Below the pieces are notes generated by a model that saw only the letters and a list, made by a program, of their open reading frames with translations, was not told where the DNA came from and made no database searches. Position numbers and translations under genes: made by a program. From Herbinix sp. (GTDB taxonomy: Bacteria > Bacillota > Clostridia > Lachnospirales > Lachnospiraceae), in contig JAQZBN010000008.1 of NCBI GenBank assembly GCA_029238935.1, forward strand, positions 109,846 through 173,845: 64,000 bases of DNA, given 5' to 3'. Positions within the stretch are counted from its first letter, which is position 1; each line of letters starts with the position of its first letter. This document shows positions 12,474-62,950 of this stretch, piece after piece.

Positions 12474-14288
12474 TTATCCCCAAATCTCCTGCATCTCATC
12501 ACAGTTTTTCAACAGTTCTTCCAGGGTTCCCTTCCCATAGATCCTACCATCTTTCATGACAATAATCTGATCCGCTTGTTTTAAAGCACCTCGACGGTTC
12601 GAAACGACAATACAGGTTCCTTTTCTTTTTTCCTGCAGTCTGCTCCAGAGCTTATGCTCCGTTTCCACATCCAGAGCACTGGAGATATCATCAAATACCA
12701 TTAACTGCGCATTTCTGGCAAACATCCTGGCTACTGCGACTCTCTGTATCTGACCTCCGGATAATTTTACACCCTTGGGACCTATAACAGTCTCCAGCCC
12801 TTGATCAAAAGCTCCCATATCACCTTCCAAAACGGCAGAATAAATCGCTTCCTGTATCACCTTCTCATCATCCGGTATCCCAAATAGTATATTGTTCTTG
12901 ATACTATCGCTGATTAGGTTTGGTATTTGTGGTGTGTATGCACAATTAGGAGCCACAAAGAAGTCCCCCGGATGATCCACCGGTGTTCCATTCCAAAGGA
13001 TACTACCTTGTTTTGCAGGCAATAATCCAATCAATACTTTTAGGAGTGTTGACTTTCCGGATCCGATGCGTCCCGTGATTACTGTAAAAGAACCTTCTTT
13101 TACTGAGAAGCTGATATCATCAATTCCATTCCCGGAAGAAGCATATTGATAGCTTACATCTTTCACTTCTAATTGTCTCAACCCATCCTTCCTATCCATT
13201 GATTTCTCGTTCATCAACTGCTGTGTACCATTCTTCTTTTTGGTAATAGGAAGTTCATTATGCTTTACCGCTTCCTCTGGAGTCTCTTCTTGCATAACAT
13301 CCGCAATCCGTTCAAACGAAATTTTCGCTTGCCTATTGTTCGCAATAAAACCTCCGAAGAAACTGGTAAAGTCGGAGATAAAATTCAAATAGTAGATGAA
13401 CAAAGATAAATCCCCCAGGGTGAGTTCACCACTCTTCATACTATTCGCTGCTAGTAACAGAATAAAACCAGTTCCAATACTTACGGTATTATAAAAGATG
13501 GAATGTAGCGTTTGGGTAAGCAGAGTATCCTTTAGCATCATCTTATGGCGCTTATTATTCAAGCTCTCCAGATACTTTGTAACATGTTCCTCTTCTCCTG
13601 CAACCTTAATTGCCTGTACTGCACTAAAGATCTCTCCCATGGCACCGGTAACCATCGCTGTTGCTTCCCGGGACTCTTTTCGATATTTTTTTACTTTCGA
13701 ACTTAGCAATTGAACAACTCCAACTACAAGAATTAAAGGTGTAAACACAAAGAGTGTTATTCGTTCATTAATGCTTAGCATAATAACTACTGCTACAATT
13801 ACAAAGGTAACATTTCCGATAAAATCCAATGTCCAGCTAATTGAATTTTCAATTGTCTCAGCATCATCTCGAAAACAGTTAAGAGCTTCCCCGGAGGATG
13901 TAGGAATGGCTTTGGCTCCCGGTTTTTTTAGAATGCTCTCGAACATATTTCTTCTTAATAATGCACTCATTGTAAATCGATGCAAGTTATCAACATTGGC
14001 ACCCCAATAAATATTAATCATTCTTCCGACCGAATAAACAGCGGATAATACAATGACAGATGTTAAATTAAATACAAAGGCCTCATTATGTGTAAGAGAA
14101 TTAAAAAAACCTTTAAAAATCAAGCCCAATATCAAAGGCTCTACATGGATAAGAGCCCATAAAATACAGTCTAGGGCATAAAGTCCCGGTTTATAGGTCA
14201 TCATTTTCCAAAAAAGTTGTAACAGGTGTATCTTATTACCTGCAGTTTTTTTCAGCTTTATTTCACTATTTAATGCATTATGATCCAT
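12474..14288 (-). CDS. ABC exporter half-transporter with degenerate ATP site (subunit B of heterodimer)
   Basis: A 604-residue exporter half with an N-terminal six-helix membrane domain (~residues 30-330) and a C-terminal ATPase. Walker A is GRIGSGKSTL and the signature is KLSGGQIQRVAVAR. Walker B reads LMVFDD, so the catalytic Glu is replaced by Asp, and the switch His is replaced by Asn (IVVSNRRGAL). This is the degenerate subunit of heterodimeric exporters such as BmrCD or TM287/288; the canonical Walker B and switch come from the partner encoded just upstream. The ATG overlaps the partner's stop (TAATG at 14286-14290), so the two are translationally coupled. Drug or lipid export is likely, substrate unknown. 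A charged stretch near residues 335-370 links the domains. Confidence 0.93.
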   Translation of the reverse strand: MDHNALNSEIKLKKTAGNKIHLLQLFWKMMTYKPGLYALDCILWALIHVEPLILGLIFKGFFNSLTHNEAFVFNLTSVIVLSAVYSVGRMINIYWGANVDNLHRFTMSALLRRNMFESILKKPGAKAIPTSSGEALNCFRDDAETIENSISWTLDFIGNVTFVIVAVVIMLSINERITLFVFTPLILVVGVVQLLSSKVKKYRKESREATAMVTGAMGEIFSAVQAIKVAGEEEHVTKYLESLNNKRHKMMLKDTLLTQTLHSIFYNTVSIGTGFILLLAANSMKSGELTLGDLSLFIYYLNFISDFTSFFGGFIANNRQAKISFERIADVMQEETPEEAVKHNELPITKKKNGTQQLMNEKSMDRKDGLRQLEVKDVSYQYASSGNGIDDISFSVKEGSFTVITGRIGSGKSTLLKVLIGLLPAKQGSILWNGTPVDHPGDFFVAPNCAYTPQIPNLISDSIKNNILFGIPDDEKVIQEAIYSAVLEGDMGAFDQGLETVIGPKGVKLSGGQIQRVAVARMFARNAQLMVFDDISSALDVETEHKLWSRLQEKRKGTCIVVSNRRGALKQADQIIVMKDGRIYGKGTLEELLKNCDEMQEIWG

Positions 14289-16036
14289 TATACTAACACC
14301 TCCTCAATCCCACAGCGAAGCAGCTCACTAAATCTTGAATTTGTATCATCTTCCAGACTCCTTCTGGATCCATACTCTAAGATAGCACCTTTATCCAGGA
14401 TTAGGATATCGTCTGCTTTCTGTATCGTTCCCAGTCTATGGGCGATAATGATACAGGATCGTCCCTCCATCAGCTTCGCAAAGGCTCTGTCCACCAGTTT
14501 TTCCGTTACTGGATCAAGTCTTGAGGATGCTTCGTCTAAGATAATCAATTTGGGATCTTTTAGAAATACTCTTACTAAGGTCAGAAGCTGTGCTTCGCCG
14601 GACGACATTCCTCCCCCCGGTTGTACTAAAGTATTCAAACCATCACTTAAGTTATCATACCAATCTCCCAGTCCCATCCGGTAAATCGTCTCCACAATAA
14701 CCGAATCCGCAATCTCTGTATTAAAAAATGTAATATTATCCCTTACAGAAGCATGAAATAGCTGCACATCCTGCGTAACGTAAGCAACCATATTACGTAA
14801 TTCCTTCGTAGGTATATCCTTTAACGGTGTATGATGAAACCTTATCTCTCCGGAAATAGGATCATAAAATCTTACCAATAGCCTAGCCACGGTAGTCTTT
14901 CCACATCCTGTGTGTCCAAGAATTCCAAGAATTTTACCCTGAGGTAGGTCAAAGGTAATATTTTTTAAAACCGGAACCTTTTCTTCATACTCAAAGTTCA
15001 CCTGATCAATATGAACTGTAAAAGAATCCGTGGGCTTTATTCCACTCTCCTCAGTTTTTACATTCATCGCAGACTTCATCTCAAACAATTCATTGATCCT
15101 TACCATACTGGCTGATGCTTTCTGAATATCCTGTAATTGTTCTCTCAGCTGCTCTAACGGTTTTTCTAATAGTTGCAGGTAATTAATCATCAAATAAACA
15201 ACTCCAAGTGTTATCTTGTCCGTATACCATAGATAACCACCCAAAGCAAAAATCATTATATTGCCCACACCAAAAATCCCTTCTAAGGTGATCCAGATTT
15301 TATAACCGGAAAGATGTGCTTTTAAAGTGATTGGCAGCCATTTCTGAACAATCTGATAGAAACGGTTCATCACATACTTGCCCGCTCCACTGGAACGAAT
15401 ATCCTCTGTACTCCCTATGTGTTCCCCTAGAAAGCCATAAAACCTTGCGGTTATCTCACGGTTTTTCTGAAAATTACCCACTGCCTGACCTTGAGTCTTA
15501 AAGATCACTGCAAAGGAAATGATCGTAAATAAAGTAAAAGCAGCTCCAACCAAAAGATTCTCCGCTGTCAGAAGAAGTATAATTCCAACCATTAAAAAAA
15601 GATTATTGATCAAGCTAACTAACAGCTTCGAGAAGAAATTAAACAAGGCAGCCACATCACCATCGATTCGCTCCACGATCTCCCCGGATGGATGTTCCTT
15701 ATAATAAGACATGTCGAGACTCAGGCAGTGTTTCACCAGATCAAGTCTTAATTTGTTCGTTGCTTTCCACCCAATGTTCTGGCTCAAATACGTGGATCCT
15801 ACTGCAAGAAGCTGCTGCAAAAAAGCAGTTAGTATAAATAATACTGCTGCAAAAATCAGTGACTCTGTAGGCATCTTCTGTCCAATTCCATCAATAAAGT
15901 AGCTGACAATTTGAGGGTTGATCAGCTGAACGATAATTATTGCCCCCATAATGAAGGCCAGAAGTACTATCTGTCCTGTTGCTTTTTTTAAGTATTTTGA
16001 TAAAAGTTTTATATATTGTGTTAATGGTAATTTCAT
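14288..16036 (-). CDS. ABC exporter half-transporter with catalytic ATP site (subunit A of heterodimer)
   Basis: A 582-residue exporter half: membrane domain (~residues 15-300) and ATPase with Walker A GHTGCGKTTVARLL, Q-loop TQDVQLF, Walker B LIILDEASSRLD (catalytic Glu present) and switch IIIAHRLGT (His present). Its signature is altered to MSSGEAQ in place of LSGGQ. The altered signature plus the partner's missing Glu and His give one active and one degenerate ATP site, the hallmark of BmrCD-like exporters. I start at the ATG at 16036, with GGGGTGG 6 bp upstream; the frame extends to 16120 only because it reads through the attenuator hairpin. Expression appears controlled by a leader with a leader ORF and attenuator (16037-16364). 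Confidence 0.93.
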   Translation of the reverse strand: MKLPLTQYIKLLSKYLKKATGQIVLLAFIMGAIIIVQLINPQIVSYFIDGIGQKMPTESLIFAAVLFILTAFLQQLLAVGSTYLSQNIGWKATNKLRLDLVKHCLSLDMSYYKEHPSGEIVERIDGDVAALFNFFSKLLVSLINNLFLMVGIILLLTAENLLVGAAFTLFTIISFAVIFKTQGQAVGNFQKNREITARFYGFLGEHIGSTEDIRSSGAGKYVMNRFYQIVQKWLPITLKAHLSGYKIWITLEGIFGVGNIMIFALGGYLWYTDKITLGVVYLMINYLQLLEKPLEQLREQLQDIQKASASMVRINELFEMKSAMNVKTEESGIKPTDSFTVHIDQVNFEYEEKVPVLKNITFDLPQGKILGILGHTGCGKTTVARLLVRFYDPISGEIRFHHTPLKDIPTKELRNMVAYVTQDVQLFHASVRDNITFFNTEIADSVIVETIYRMGLGDWYDNLSDGLNTLVQPGGGMSSGEAQLLTLVRVFLKDPKLIILDEASSRLDPVTEKLVDRAFAKLMEGRSCIIIAHRLGTIQKADDILILDKGAILEYGSRRSLEDDTNSRFSELLRCGIEEVLV

Positions 16037-16068
16037 GGAATCCCACCCCTTTAAATTTGATCTTTCTG

Positions 16069-16105
16069 CATAAAAATAGACGCAGATTAAGGTTAACTCT
16101 GCGTC
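16069..16105 (-). terminator. Attenuator terminator inside the exporter leader
   Basis: On the minus strand GACGCAGA (16098-16105) pairs with TCTGCGTC (16079-16086), followed by TATTTTTA. It ends ~35 bp before the exporter ATG and after the leader ORFs, so it must be bypassed for exporter expression. Confidence 0.85.
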
Positions 16106-16132
16106 TTCTCTTTGATACATAAAAAATGTATG

Positions 16133-16174
16133 CTATCCATCTATATGATATAGAAAAAGCCACAGGCATAGCAT
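16133..16174 (-). CDS. Possible second leader peptide, 13 codons
   Basis: ATG at 16174 opens a frame MLCLWLFLYHIDG that stops at 16133, just before the attenuator hairpins. It begins MLC like the Tet(M)-type leader peptide, but the only ribosome-site candidate (GCAGG) is too close to this ATG and better spaced for the overlapping ATG at 16169. Either frame could be the one translated. Confidence 0.3.
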   Translation of the reverse strand: MLCLWLFLYHIDG

Positions 16175-16224
16175 AACCTGCAGCTTAACATTCACTTACA
16201 AAGATGTCGTTAAATATCCTTGGA

Positions 16225-16290
16225 TTATAGTAATAAAAGGCTGGTCATGCTTAAATTATTAAATTGTAGTATTTTACTTGTAATCCTCAT
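16225..16290 (-). CDS. Leader peptide of the ABC exporter operon, 21 codons
   Basis: ATG at 16290 opens a 21-residue frame starting MRITSKILQFNN and ending TSLLLL, stop at 16225. AAAGGAGGTC (16296-16305) is a near-perfect ribosome site 5 bp before the ATG, unusually strong for a chance ORF. The codons for residues 14-16 are complementary to the ribosome-site edge, so translation and RNA folding are linked. It is likely a regulatory leader ORF. The first residues also resemble the start of flagellar FlgL proteins, probably by chance. Confidence 0.65.
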   Translation of the reverse strand: MRITSKILQFNNLSMTSLLLL

Positions 16291-16335
16291 TGCATGACCT
16301 CCTTTCTGATCGCTTTTATTTTTCGTTGCTTACTT

Positions 16336-16364
16336 AAGATAACATGATTTTCCATAAATAGCAA
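16336..16364 (-). promoter_or_regulatory. Promoter of the ABC exporter leader
   Basis: On the minus strand TTGCTA (16359-16364) and TATCTT (16336-16341) are 17 bp apart, ~30 bp upstream of the leader ribosome site. Confidence 0.6.
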
Positions 16365-16462
16365 TATAAATTTAATAAATTTTTCCAGCCAGTATTTACA
16401 TTACCATTTTATGGATTTATAATGAAATGAGTATAAAATAAATATTAGGGCAGGAGGATTTT

Positions 16463-17893
16463 ATGAACAAAGTAATGAAACGCATTGCTGTTTTACTGTG
16501 TATCGTCTTTATCGCACCTTCTATTTTAAGCTGTATTCCTACATTAAATATGGTTTCCACAGCATCGGCAGCAAGTACCAAAGCTTCTCTAGGAATTACC
16601 AGCGGAACCATCGGTGTGTACAGTACCCCGGAATATCTTTACATCGAACATTACAATAGTAACGCAACCTATACCTTCACCAGTTCCGATTCCAAGATTG
16701 CCATCGTAGATGAGTATGGAATTGTTACCGGCGTGAAAAAGGGCAAAACAACCATTTTAGTGAATGAGACATTAAACGGTGAAACAGTTAAGATCGGAAC
16801 TTATACAGCGAATGTCGTTACCGCTTCTCTCTACAAGGAAGAGTTAAATGTGGGGATAAATTCTTATGGATACGTTCCCATCCAGTTTCTAAATAATAAA
16901 GCAACCTATACCTATAAATCCTCGGATACCTCCGTACTTAAGGTTGATAAGGACGGTTCTCTCGAAGGGATCAAACAAGGGAAGGCAACGATTAGCGTAT
17001 CAGAAACTTATAACAAAAAAACTACAAAGATCGGTTCTTATACGGTTAATGTCATACCCGCAGCCTTAGGATTAAAAGAAGTAGAAGTTCCTGTCTCCGA
17101 TGTCTCTTATAATGAAGTATATATTGATTATCGAAATTCCAAAGCAACATACACCTTTAAATCCTCCGATACCAAGGTTGTTAAAGTAGATAAACAGGGT
17201 TTTATTACCGGTGTGAAAGAGGGAAGTGCAACCATTACAGTATCAGAAACTTATAATAAGAAAACCAGAAAAGTCGGCACCCTTAAAGTAAATGTTGTAG
17301 GACCTTATATCCATCCCGATTGGAGATCCATCGAGATAGGTATTAACTCCTCGAATTATCTCAGTGGACTTTTCTATATCGCATATCAGAACTATGAAGC
17401 TACTTATACCTGTGAGTCCTCCGATCCCGCCATCGTATCTGTACAAAATCAAGTCGATGCATGGGGTTATTCCTCCTATATGGTAAATGGTGTTTCCCTT
17501 GGTACCGCTACCCTTACTGTATACGAAGAATACAATGGTAATAAAAAAGAAATTGGAACTGTAAAAGTTACTGTAAAAGAATTTCCGATCAAAGAATTTT
17601 ATATCAACCCATATTATTTGGAAGCTGATAAGGATGCTTTAAGCATTGATTACTACTTAAATTATGATTACTCCTATTCCAGCATCAGTTATTATTTTTA
17701 TATCGATCCTTACAATACAACTACACCGGTTACGTATACCTCCAGCAATGAAGCAGTCGCAACCGTTGATGAAAAAGGCGTTGTAACACCAGTAAGTACA
17801 GGTACAACGCAAATAACAGCAACCTGTGGAGAATATAAGGGCTCCATCGAGATCGTGGTAAAGCCGGCGGAAGATAACCCTTATTTCTATTAG
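16463..17893 (+). CDS. Secreted protein with about five BIG2 (bacterial Ig-like) repeats
   Basis: A 476-residue exported protein. Residues 1-38 form a signal peptide (MNKVMKRIAVLLCIVFIAP, cleavage near ASAA-S). The rest is a series of ~80-residue BIG2-like repeats marked by YTFTSSDSKIAIVDEYGIVTG, YTYKSSDTSVLKVDKDG, YTFKSSDTKVVKVDKQG, YTCESSDPAIVSV and YTSSNEAVATVDEKG. There is no LPXTG motif, transmembrane anchor or recognised enzyme domain. BIG2 repeats form adhesive or spacer domains on cell surfaces. GCAGGAGG lies 6 bp before the ATG. It is followed by a hairpin (17945-18006) and then an O-antigen-ligase-like gene on the same strand, but a joint role is only a guess. Confidence 0.88.
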   Translation: MNKVMKRIAVLLCIVFIAPSILSCIPTLNMVSTASAASTKASLGITSGTIGVYSTPEYLYIEHYNSNATYTFTSSDSKIAIVDEYGIVTGVKKGKTTILVNETLNGETVKIGTYTANVVTASLYKEELNVGINSYGYVPIQFLNNKATYTYKSSDTSVLKVDKDGSLEGIKQGKATISVSETYNKKTTKIGSYTVNVIPAALGLKEVEVPVSDVSYNEVYIDYRNSKATYTFKSSDTKVVKVDKQGFITGVKEGSATITVSETYNKKTRKVGTLKVNVVGPYIHPDWRSIEIGINSSNYLSGLFYIAYQNYEATYTCESSDPAIVSVQNQVDAWGYSSYMVNGVSLGTATLTVYEEYNGNKKEIGTVKVTVKEFPIKEFYINPYYLEADKDALSIDYYLNYDYSYSSISYYFYIDPYNTTTPVTYTSSNEAVATVDEKGVVTPVSTGTTQITATCGEYKGSIEIVVKPAEDNPYFY

Positions 17894-61720: not shown

Positions 61721-62950
61721 TTATATTATTACCGTAAAACAGATCGATTTACTATCGTCACTTCGAACTGTTATCTTTCCATGATGAGCTTCTACGATCG
61801 ACTTTGCAATGGAAAGACCAATTCCATACCCACCGGTCTCTCTGGATCTGGAGGAATCTGCCCGGTAAAAACGGTCAAATAGCCGATTCAAATTACTCCT
61901 ATCTATTTCTTGCACTGTATTATATACTTCAAGCATGATACCCTTTTTAGCAGCTGAGACTGTTATTGTAATCGTTCCTTCCTGATCAGAGTACTTCATC
62001 GCATTATCCAGTAGTGTAGAGACCAGTTGATGGATACTACTTTTATCCCCATTCAAGGTCAATCCCTGTGCGACCTCGATATAAAACTTCTTGTTCGTGG
62101 CTTCTGCCATCGCACGAAAGGATTCAGCGATCTCCGTTATTGCTTCACTAAGATTAAAATTCGTAAATACTAATTCAATCCTTCCTTCCTCCATCTTTGA
62201 TAAAGTAAGGAGGTGTTTCACCAGTTTATCCAGACGGGAGGTCTGATTTCTGATACTGGTAATCCACTCATTATTCCCTCCCGTAAGCTCCAGTACATCT
62301 GCGTTGGCAGAGATAATTGCCAGGGGAGTCTTAATTTCATGTCCTGCATCGGTAATAAACTGCTTCTGCTTCTCCATACTCTCAACAATAGGTTTCATCG
62401 CTCTTTTTGAGAAAATGGATACAAGAAGGAATACCAGTAATAATGTTGCTAATGCTACTGCGCATGAAATTAATAAAAAGAAAGTAATGGTTTGAATCTG
62501 GCTTCTGCAATCGATAAAGATTATCATGGTACCACTTGTTTGCTCCACAACAGCGTATTTATAAATACCCAGATATCCTCTTGTTTCATTTTCTTTCTCT
62601 ACTTTATCCACATACTCCACCGCATCTTCTGAGGATACTGCTGCTATATGACTCGTATCGATCTCCTGAATACTACCTTCGTTATTCACTTTAACGGTAA
62701 AATATCTGGTCTCAAAAGGAGTCTCCTCATTCATTCGAAATCCAAACTTCGGATCCTTCTGGGGTGGCTTTTCATGATCAAACTTAGGAAACTTCCCCTG
62801 ATTTTCCGAAAGAACCTGAAGAGTTCCTTTCACTTTATGTTCCATTTGATAAAAATTTATTGCATTAATTGATCCCACCAGCAATAACATAACGAGAAAT
62901 AACGACATCATAGTAACAGTAATAAATTTTCGCTGCAGTTTTCTTATCAT
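61721..62950 (-). CDS. Sensor histidine kinase
   Basis: A 409-residue membrane kinase. Helices at ~13-33 and ~150-172 bracket a ~115-residue external sensor with Pro/Lys-rich start (FPKFDHEKPPQKDPKFGF). The kinase core has the H-box FITDAGHEIKTPLAI with the phospho-His, an N-box HQLVSTLLDNAMKYS and G-boxes GGYGIGLSIAKS. Its start overlaps the response regulator stop by 4 bp. The sensed signal is unknown; the shared operator suggests the system controls the VTC/DUF4956/Cthe_2159 genes next to it. Confidence 0.94.
   Translation of the reverse strand: MIRKLQRKFITVTMMSLFLVMLLLVGSINAINFYQMEHKVKGTLQVLSENQGKFPKFDHEKPPQKDPKFGFRMNEETPFETRYFTVKVNNEGSIQEIDTSHIAAVSSEDAVEYVDKVEKENETRGYLGIYKYAVVEQTSGTMIIFIDCRSQIQTITFFLLISCAVALATLLLVFLLVSIFSKRAMKPIVESMEKQKQFITDAGHEIKTPLAIISANADVLELTGGNNEWITSIRNQTSRLDKLVKHLLTLSKMEEGRIELVFTNFNLSEAITEIAESFRAMAEATNKKFYIEVAQGLTLNGDKSSIHQLVSTLLDNAMKYSDQEGTITITVSAAKKGIMLEVYNTVQEIDRSNLNRLFDRFYRADSSRSRETGGYGIGLSIAKSIVEAHHGKITVRSDDSKSICFTVII

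Follow-up and report, generated by a model that had tools for sequence, protein, structure and literature searches.

A short open reading frame (ORF) in the leader of a predicted ABC exporter operon of Herbinix sp. carries codons that are complementary both to its own Shine-Dalgarno sequence (SD) and to the 5' arm of a downstream terminator, T1. Judging from the letters and from folding models, we consider it likely that this leader is a ribosome-mediated attenuator which would allow read-through only upon arrest of a ribosome at about the first four to five codons. The window, i.e. the whole stretch of 64,000 nucleotides that was analysed, is part of contig C71 of a 5.37-Mb assembly. An earlier sequence-only reading of this DNA had proposed a leader-ORF attenuator for a BmrCD-like exporter, with a promoter, a 21-codon ORF, a strong SD, an 8 bp SD:ORF helix and a terminator; all of these elements are present on the minus strand between 16364 and 16037 (Table 1), and the comparisons described below support attenuation through a leader ORF ahead of a heterodimeric ABC exporter. 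The terminator T1, the putative antiterminator pairing and the apparent wide recurrence of the design come in addition to it.

Table 1. Positions of the leader elements and of the exporter genes in the window.
Feature	Positions	Strand	Remarks
Promoter (predicted)	16336..16364	-	-35 TTGCTA 16364-16359, 17-nt spacer, -10 TATCTT 16341-16336
Region 1	16292..16307	-	leader-ORF SD AGGAGG 16303-16298 and GGTCATGC 16299-16292
Leader ORF	16225..16290	-	21 codons and stop (MRITSKILQFNNLSMTSLLLL)
Region 2	16239..16251	-	ORF codons AGCATGACCAGCC; complement of regions 1 and 3
Terminator T1	16154..16186	-	listed by the terminator scan; kept in L014 and L015 with pair-keeping changes
Region 3	16181-16170	-	GCAGGTTATGCT, in T1 5' arm and loop
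Region 4	16167-16157	-	T1 3' arm
MLC ORF	16133..16174	-	over T1; unsupported as a gene
Terminator T2	16072..16108	-	AGACGCAGA...TCTGCGTCTATTTTT, 16106-16072
Region 5	16108-16097	-	T2 5' arm
Region 6		-	T2 3' arm
Exporter-gene SD	16042..16050	-	AGGGGTGGG
ABC exporter subunit 1	14288..16036	-	582 aa; catalytic Walker B Glu (LIILDEA), degenerate signature SSGEAQ
ABC exporter subunit 2	12474..14288	-	604 aa; signature LSGGQ, Walker B FDD

Organization of the exporter operon and its leader

The operon (16036-12474, minus strand) comprises the genes of two half-transporters that belong to the type IV exporters and whose motif asymmetry (SSGEAQ/LIILDEA versus LSGGQ/FDD) matches that of heterodimeric exporters; judged from the family only, drugs would be the exported substrate. 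Mobilitalea, Herbinix and Anaerocolumna are among the named organisms with a related exporter subunit. Among PDB entries, the top bacterial half-transporter for subunit 1 was TM_0288, and neither Bmr chain lay within E 1e-60 among 48 matches; for subunit 2 it was YheI of Bacillus subtilis (E 2.5e-47, among the best 60 of 69 PDB matches listed). From an in-frame ATG at 16120 the ORF finder extends the exporter to 610 aa (16037-16120, minus strand), and a relative of 611 aa, P0002, has a similar N-terminal extension, KKRRANFSALF. As the window extension runs through the second terminator, T2, and that of P0002 would fit a T2-like sequence, these predicted extensions are probably artefacts. On the plus strand, a divergent promoter-like site (TTTACA-17-TATAAT, 11/12) faces 16395-17893, which encodes a protein of 476 aa that contains repeats of Ig-like appearance and matched nothing in NCBIfam at E <= 0.001.

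The promoter pattern TTGC[TA]A-17-TATCTT is present in the window and in the corresponding leaders of two congeners (loci L014 and L015); the window promoter is absent from the list of a simple promoter scan, and the transcription start is a presumed one. The 8 bp helix joins GGTCATGC to GCATGACC inside the ORF. T1 begins 38 nt past the leader stop codon and lies outside the leader coding region. T2 is absent from the list of the simple scan, and its 5:6 duplex had P values of 0.0005, 0.0065 and 0 of 2000 in the window, L014 and L015, respectively (the order kept for all such triplets). The sequence-only reading had stacked a second ORF, beginning MLC, behind the first one. This ORF has no evident SD and lies in the T1 hairpin, and the corresponding peptides of L014 and L015 begin with MPSAAF... 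and MLYLWL..., respectively; it was rejected as a second sensor for want of an SD and of conservation. The ATGC of its start, which forms the T1 loop, is kept and is a potential pairing partner of region 2.

Conservation of the window leader

The folding energy of the 301-nt leader is -75.9 kcal/mol (z = -4.64), a stability reached by 0/100 shuffles. An 8 bp helix arose from shuffled ORFs with P = 0.00145; since helices of 8 bp occur in 3/44 short ORFs of the window that follow an SD (two of the three overlapping at 62267-62271), the helix alone is weak support, and the decisive support is comparative, namely the two congeners and the recurrence with changing letters before a second exporter in many genera. 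The exporter subunit (E <= 1e-120) and the leader pattern occur in the same 3/34 genus genomes. Kept in all three window-type leaders are the promoter elements, the SD, GCATGACC, the T1-loop ATGC and both terminators, and the distance from the ATG to GCATGACC is 40, 43 and 46 nt, one frame in all three. The residues before region 2 differ (MRITSKILQ, MIRNLKFVN and MRFFIFQNH). Because they are not conserved, a general early arrest reads better than a peptide-specific stall, and the earlier idea of a sensor acting through a distinct first peptide is not supported.

A covariance model run against 195 relatives gave strong matches with the three leaders only (175, 146 and 141 bits, scores that are high by construction because these leaders built the model), the next match, at 45 bits, being a plain terminator. 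With hits in 12/195 genomes at E <= 0.05, the nine others (L032-L040) were rejected as plain terminators, coding sequence or no such leader. At one of these weak hits, L040 (G028:C73, ~1560-1640; E 0.038), an ABC-F-like gene lies directly behind a terminator-like hairpin and an SD. A pattern search of the family matched 4/397 genomes including our own (a control pattern, 1/397), and the additional loci (L019-L021) were dismissed as chance, L019 running into a long coding sequence and L020 and L021 being judged on the matched letters alone.

Family-level protein searches among 397 and among 348 genomes found the window subunit in its own genome only; at class level, homologues were present in 4/381 genomes, own included, and in one further family in 4/22. 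Viral contigs contained no exporter homologues, a plasmid search returned seven ABC homologues, all below 60% identity, and a scan of genome contigs three distant ABC loci. Among the seven window-subunit homologues outside the genus (L022-L028), the SD:ORF helix and terminator design was found in L023 only, which belongs to another family and has a third version of the helix (GAGGTAGG/CCTACCTC) with non-significant 2:3 pairing (P 0.319). Against a model built without it, L023 matched at 22.4 bits (E 0.012 in 147 kb), which is weak when calibrated by antisense matches in L015 at E 0.0037 and 0.046.

Neither the window region nor 11 of the loci examined had a match above threshold in Rfam 15, and two sub-threshold hits in the window (14.5 and 13.1 bits) belong to unrelated families. 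Control by a trans factor or ligand, that is a riboswitch or an RNA-binding protein to which the ORF would be secondary, might be read from the strong structure (the z-score given above). We hold such control to be highly improbable, however, in view of the missing Rfam match, and what is conserved is the SD, the ORF frame, the anti-SD and the terminator, with no conserved unpaired pocket in the alignments.

A putative pairing switch set by ribosome position

The letters show two possible pairings of region 2 (AGCATGACCAGC) that exclude each other, one with region 1, which holds the SD, and one with region 3 (GCAGGTTATGCT), in a layout that is conserved. The 1:2 duplex amounts to -20.9, -13.2 and -12.1 kcal/mol (P 0 of 2000, 0.0115 and 0.027) and the 2:3 duplex to -13.8, -12.6 and -14.6 kcal/mol (P 0.01, 0.098 and 0.0445; when the T1 letters were scrambled with the hairpin retained, P 0.0088, 0.052 and 0.0075). 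L014 is the weakest case, its 2:3 pairing being non-significant in three tests (P 0.152, 0.098 and 0.052).

In silico, the antiterminator depended on ribosome position, weakly so in L014. When nascent RNA ending after region 3 was folded with a ribosome at the start codon, the mean fraction of region 3 paired with the ORF was 0.60, 0.70 and 0.73; it was 0.07, 0.29 and 0.28 without ribosome, and 0.01, 0.07 and 0.01 with a ribosome at the stop codon. Moving the stalled ribosome along the ORF gave 2:3 fractions of 0.66-0.81 at codons 1-4, of 0.13, 0.19 and 0.56 at codon 5 and of 0.00 at codons 6-9, followed by a slight rise at codons 11-12 (maximum 0.15, in L014); at the stop codon 1:2 re-formed (1.00, 0.85 and 0.77). 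When five different footprints were assumed at 37 C, this early interval ended between codon 4 and codon 7; codons 26-27 of L015 also pass in some settings, as does a small number of additional codons of L014 and L015 at 55 C. With T1 complete and the ribosome on the start codon, the energies of the T1 and 2:3 states were -24.7/-22.7 in the window, -27.2/-26.0 in L014 and -31.5/-24.6 in L015. As full-length transcripts fold best with T1 even at start-codon arrest, the ON state must be kinetic, with 2:3 forming first.

We propose that without a ribosome 1:2 would form, leaving the SD masked, and T1 (3:4) would form as well, resulting in the OFF state. A ribosome running to the stop codon would cover region 2 and let T1 form, after which 1:2 would re-form over the SD, again giving OFF; since re-formed 1:2 would mask the SD, each transcript would be read about once. 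A ribosome arrested on codons 1 to 4-5 would cover region 1 while leaving region 2 open, and 2:3, being the first to form, would block T1 (ON). Inducers would be expected among drugs that arrest initiation or early elongation, such as lincosamides, pleuromutilins, streptogramin A and tetracyclines, rather than among those that act through deep-stalling peptides.

In the window leader, the 3' arm released from T1 might in turn capture the 5' arm of T2 (4:5), with the consequence that T2 would fall as well. With 3:4 forbidden and a ribosome at the start codon, the 4:5 fraction was 0.66, 0.53 and 0.69 versus 0.01, 0.32 and 0.00 for free RNA; P values for 4:5 were 0.09, 0.0138 and 0.0018 against scrambled hairpins and 0.1135, 0.075 and 0.0085 against plain shuffles. 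At equilibrium a complete T2 favours 5:6, and therefore 4:5 must also be kinetic. On these models, a domino through two terminators (OFF, 1:2, 3:4 and 5:6; ON, 2:3 and 4:5) is plausible.

A second exporter with the same leader design within the genus

Nine other exporter loci (L002-L010) were found in the same genome, and the design was present at L010 only, which is 23% identical to the window subunit. Its leader comprises a promoter (TTGACA-17-TATACT), the SD GTGAGGTAA, a 27-codon ORF containing TTACCTCA and a terminator. Orthologues of L010 belong to the core of the genus (33/34 genomes, E <= 1e-120); G029:C276:7899-9548 is a second copy of this core exporter subunit, 73% identical to that of L010. 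An SD GAGGT followed by an ORF of 15-45 codons containing ACCTC was present at 27/30 genus loci, the three others being L052, without the pattern, and L063 and L070, which have 217 and 5 nt upstream. The pairing, arm-swap and stall-index tests cover 26 genus leaders, with L047 left out.

A terminator follows the leader in all 26, and the 1:2 helix had P <= 0.05 in 23 of them. In 23/26 the best ORF:T1 pairing runs through ACCTC; 2:3 reached P <= 0.05 in 9/26, L010/L041 being without significant 2:3 pairing (P 0.23-0.28). Swapping T1 arms among the 26 leaders weakened 2:3 from -10.55 to -9.12 (0 of 20000 permutations), and the effect was also seen within two groups defined by peptide motif (P 0.0022). 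Swapping of the SD was not significant (P 0.11) because its letters hardly vary. Paired changes were found in L066 (GGAAAAACC/GGTTTTTC versus GGAAATACC/GGTATTTC in relatives), L064 (AGAGGT/ACCTCT versus TGAGGT/ACCTCA in relatives) and L047 (GGAGGT/ACCTCC), and the window leader does the same job with other letters, GGTCATGC/GCATGACC. In an index test, 2:3 was favoured by early arrest over both free RNA and codons 7-11 in 23/26 genus leaders, and the index was at least 0.4 without any ribosome in 8/26; as it uses a fixed divisor and values above 1 occur, these figures have a relative reading only.

In frame, ACC-TC spells Thr-Ser, and TS is recurrent in the peptides of the class; L057 and L062 carry ACCTC in another frame. 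A rival attenuator model, in which a particular peptide stalls the ribosome far into the ORF and senses macrolides or amino acids in the manner of the ermC, msrD or trp leaders, could draw on this recurrence, on the common frame of the ORF in the three window-type leaders and on the similar peptide over region 2 (SMTS, CMTI and SMTS). Yet a shared TS without a shared stalling motif is accounted for by RNA pairing, because the anti-SD codons ACC-TC(N) spell Thr-Ser. The earlier residues differ; the leaders of the window, L014 and L015 contain no RLR as in ermC, msrD or ermK, and share neither an N-terminal motif nor a single-amino-acid run. With a ribosome at codons 6-9, moreover, 1:2 is predicted to persist, and we judge a deep stall to be unlikely.

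Leaders of the L010 type beyond the genus

Orthologues of L010 were found in 30/150 family genomes, taken one per genus with our own included; the loci of the 29 other genera and the 30 loci of the genus made up a set of 59. Leaders were chosen by an SD, an ATG, 15-45 codons and a terminator thereafter, with the helix ignored, and were obtained at 49 loci (26 in the genus and 23 in other genera). Two of the ten remaining loci had 4-5 nt upstream, two had 217 and 394 nt, and six had the full 500 nt, although one of the latter, L056, does have a leader by pattern search.

A Watson-Crick SD:ORF helix of at least 6 bp was present in 43/49 leaders, versus a mean of 28.5 and a maximum of 39 in 10000 swapped sets. 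In the other genera it was found in 18/23 (swapped 10.4, P 0.0009) and in the genus in 25/26 (swapped 23.1, P 0.05). The helix is shorter than 6 bp in L074, L079, L086, L095 and L099, all of other genera, which may use another register or be decayed; strong imperfect SD:ORF pairing (~-15 kcal/mol) was observed in L079, L086 and L099. CCTC lies inside the ORF in 45/49 leaders, compared with 4.2 expected in shuffled ORFs. The SD and anti-SD letters vary by genus, as in GAGGTAA/TTACCTC, AGAGGTAAA/TTTACCTCT, GGAGGTAA/TTACCTCC, GAGGCAGA/TCTGCCTC and GAGGCAGT/ACTGCCTC, and among the 44 leaders in which CCTC occurs only once the pairs flanking this core were standard in 0.795 of native versus 0.703 of swapped cases (0 of 10000). 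This flank covariation was seen in other genera (P 0.0019) and in the type GAGGT (P 0.0013), permutations that, like the others, ignore relatedness, which inflates the tests and is curbed only partly by the single leader per genus in the other-genera set. Within types, covariation outside the genus is not established, because GAGGT of other genera gave P 0.20 and GAGGC P 0.34. Altogether, an SD-complementary leader stands before this second predicted exporter in our genus and in 18 other genera.

Early arrest added more than one pair of 2:3 over free RNA in 24/26 genus leaders and 18/23 others (no such gain in L055 and L068 of the genus, nor in L072, L080, L087, L093 and L097), and over codons 7-11 in 23/26 and 18/23 (no such gain in L046, L055, L068, L072, L080, L091, L093 and L098). 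It could be argued that the leader is simply an SD-masked ORF followed by two constitutive terminators, the ORF:T1 pairing being incidental and the masking merely limiting leader translation; T1 does beat 2:3 in full-length folds, and 2:3 is weak in L014, L023 and L041. The native 2:3 pairing is, however, stronger than the swapped one (P 0.0001 for the genus, P 0.0025 for other genera), and in the genus leaders the T1 loop letters, which are dispensable for the terminator, change in step with the ORF codons. We therefore regard constitutive termination as improbable, and a real and conserved window leader that would act as a ribosome-mediated attenuator reading early ribosome arrest as the most likely explanation of the letters and folds.

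Discussion

To our knowledge, attenuators before drug-resistance genes are known mostly singly, from a few model Firmicutes. The leaders described here look like a widespread variant of ribosome-mediated attenuation, to which the vmlR and cplR attenuators are the nearest known. In the vmlR leader of B. subtilis, a uORF lies inside an anti-antiterminator hairpin that is followed by an antiterminator and a terminator, drugs arresting initiating ribosomes induce, and peptide variants of the three-codon uORF (MIN) still work (PMC9226507). The window leader has the same anti-antiterminator, antiterminator and terminator arrangement with a uORF, but the vmlR SD is described as single-stranded before the hairpin, whereas the window SD would be held in a helix whose partner is coded by the ORF itself, and the three-codon uORF and ABC-F target of vmlR stand against a 21-codon ORF and an exporter pair (PMC9226507). 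The cplR leader of Clostridioides difficile has a 5' hairpin that sequesters the uORF, a terminator and an antiterminator, and responds to retapamulin and lincomycin (PMC10201436). Its uORF starts with MR[I/M] and the window ORF with MRI, a match that may be chance; the window differs from cplR in that the latter has a three-residue uORF consensus, an ABC-F target and a terminator hairpin masking the SD of the main gene (PMC10201436).

Other systems share single traits. In bmrB-bmrCD of B. subtilis, as proposed for the window, leader translation controls an intrinsic terminator before a heterodimeric ABC exporter, and ribosome-targeting drugs induce (PMC4191407). BmrB, however, has 53 residues, the terminator is inside its coding region and an anti-antiterminator role is left unclear there, whereas the window T1 lies outside the ORF; an SD:ORF helix is not described for bmrB in the text available (PMC4191407). 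In the tlrB (yxjB) leader of B. subtilis a hairpin stops further rounds of leader translation, but, unlike the mechanism proposed for the window, the ribosome stalls at an RYR motif and itself obstructs the terminator, and no overlapping antiterminator was found (PMC6851288). The erm(K) attenuator is reported to have, like the window leader, two adjacent Rho-independent terminators and a leader ORF, which in erm(K) encodes a macrolide stalling peptide of the MTHxMRLR type (described in PMC4335068 and PMC5418344). The toiL uORF of Escherichia coli provides multi-drug sensing because tetracycline, and by inference also retapamulin, arrests ribosomes at its start codon; it controls translation and thereby Rho termination, whereas the window has an intrinsic terminator (PMC12121999).

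An ORF that masks its own SD and also forms the antiterminator was not found described, nor was such a class before Lachnospiraceae exporters, in a literature search that was thin on subscription papers and is no proof of novelty; the accessible parts of two structured-RNA surveys (PMC8632094 and PMC11109978) do not show this kind of leader. We give an even chance to the broader proposal that an undescribed drug-sensing class guards type IV ABC exporters throughout the Lachnospiraceae, in which the ORF-coded anti-SD (often Thr-Ser) would restrict each transcript to about one ribosome, arrest at the first codons would flip the switch, with the domino at the window locus, and the peptide would be irrelevant, so that initiation arrest of any cause would be sensed.

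In these leaders the coding sequence itself would be the regulatory RNA, its codons masking their own SD and holding the antiterminator. If this is true, they would represent a compact sensor of early arrest that is independent of a stalling peptide, and would tell which drugs induce these exporters. The once-per-transcript reading of the leader would become testable, the two-terminator domino being the sharper prediction, and further members could be sought by a simple rule, namely a terminator preceded by a short leader ORF that contains the complement of an SD.
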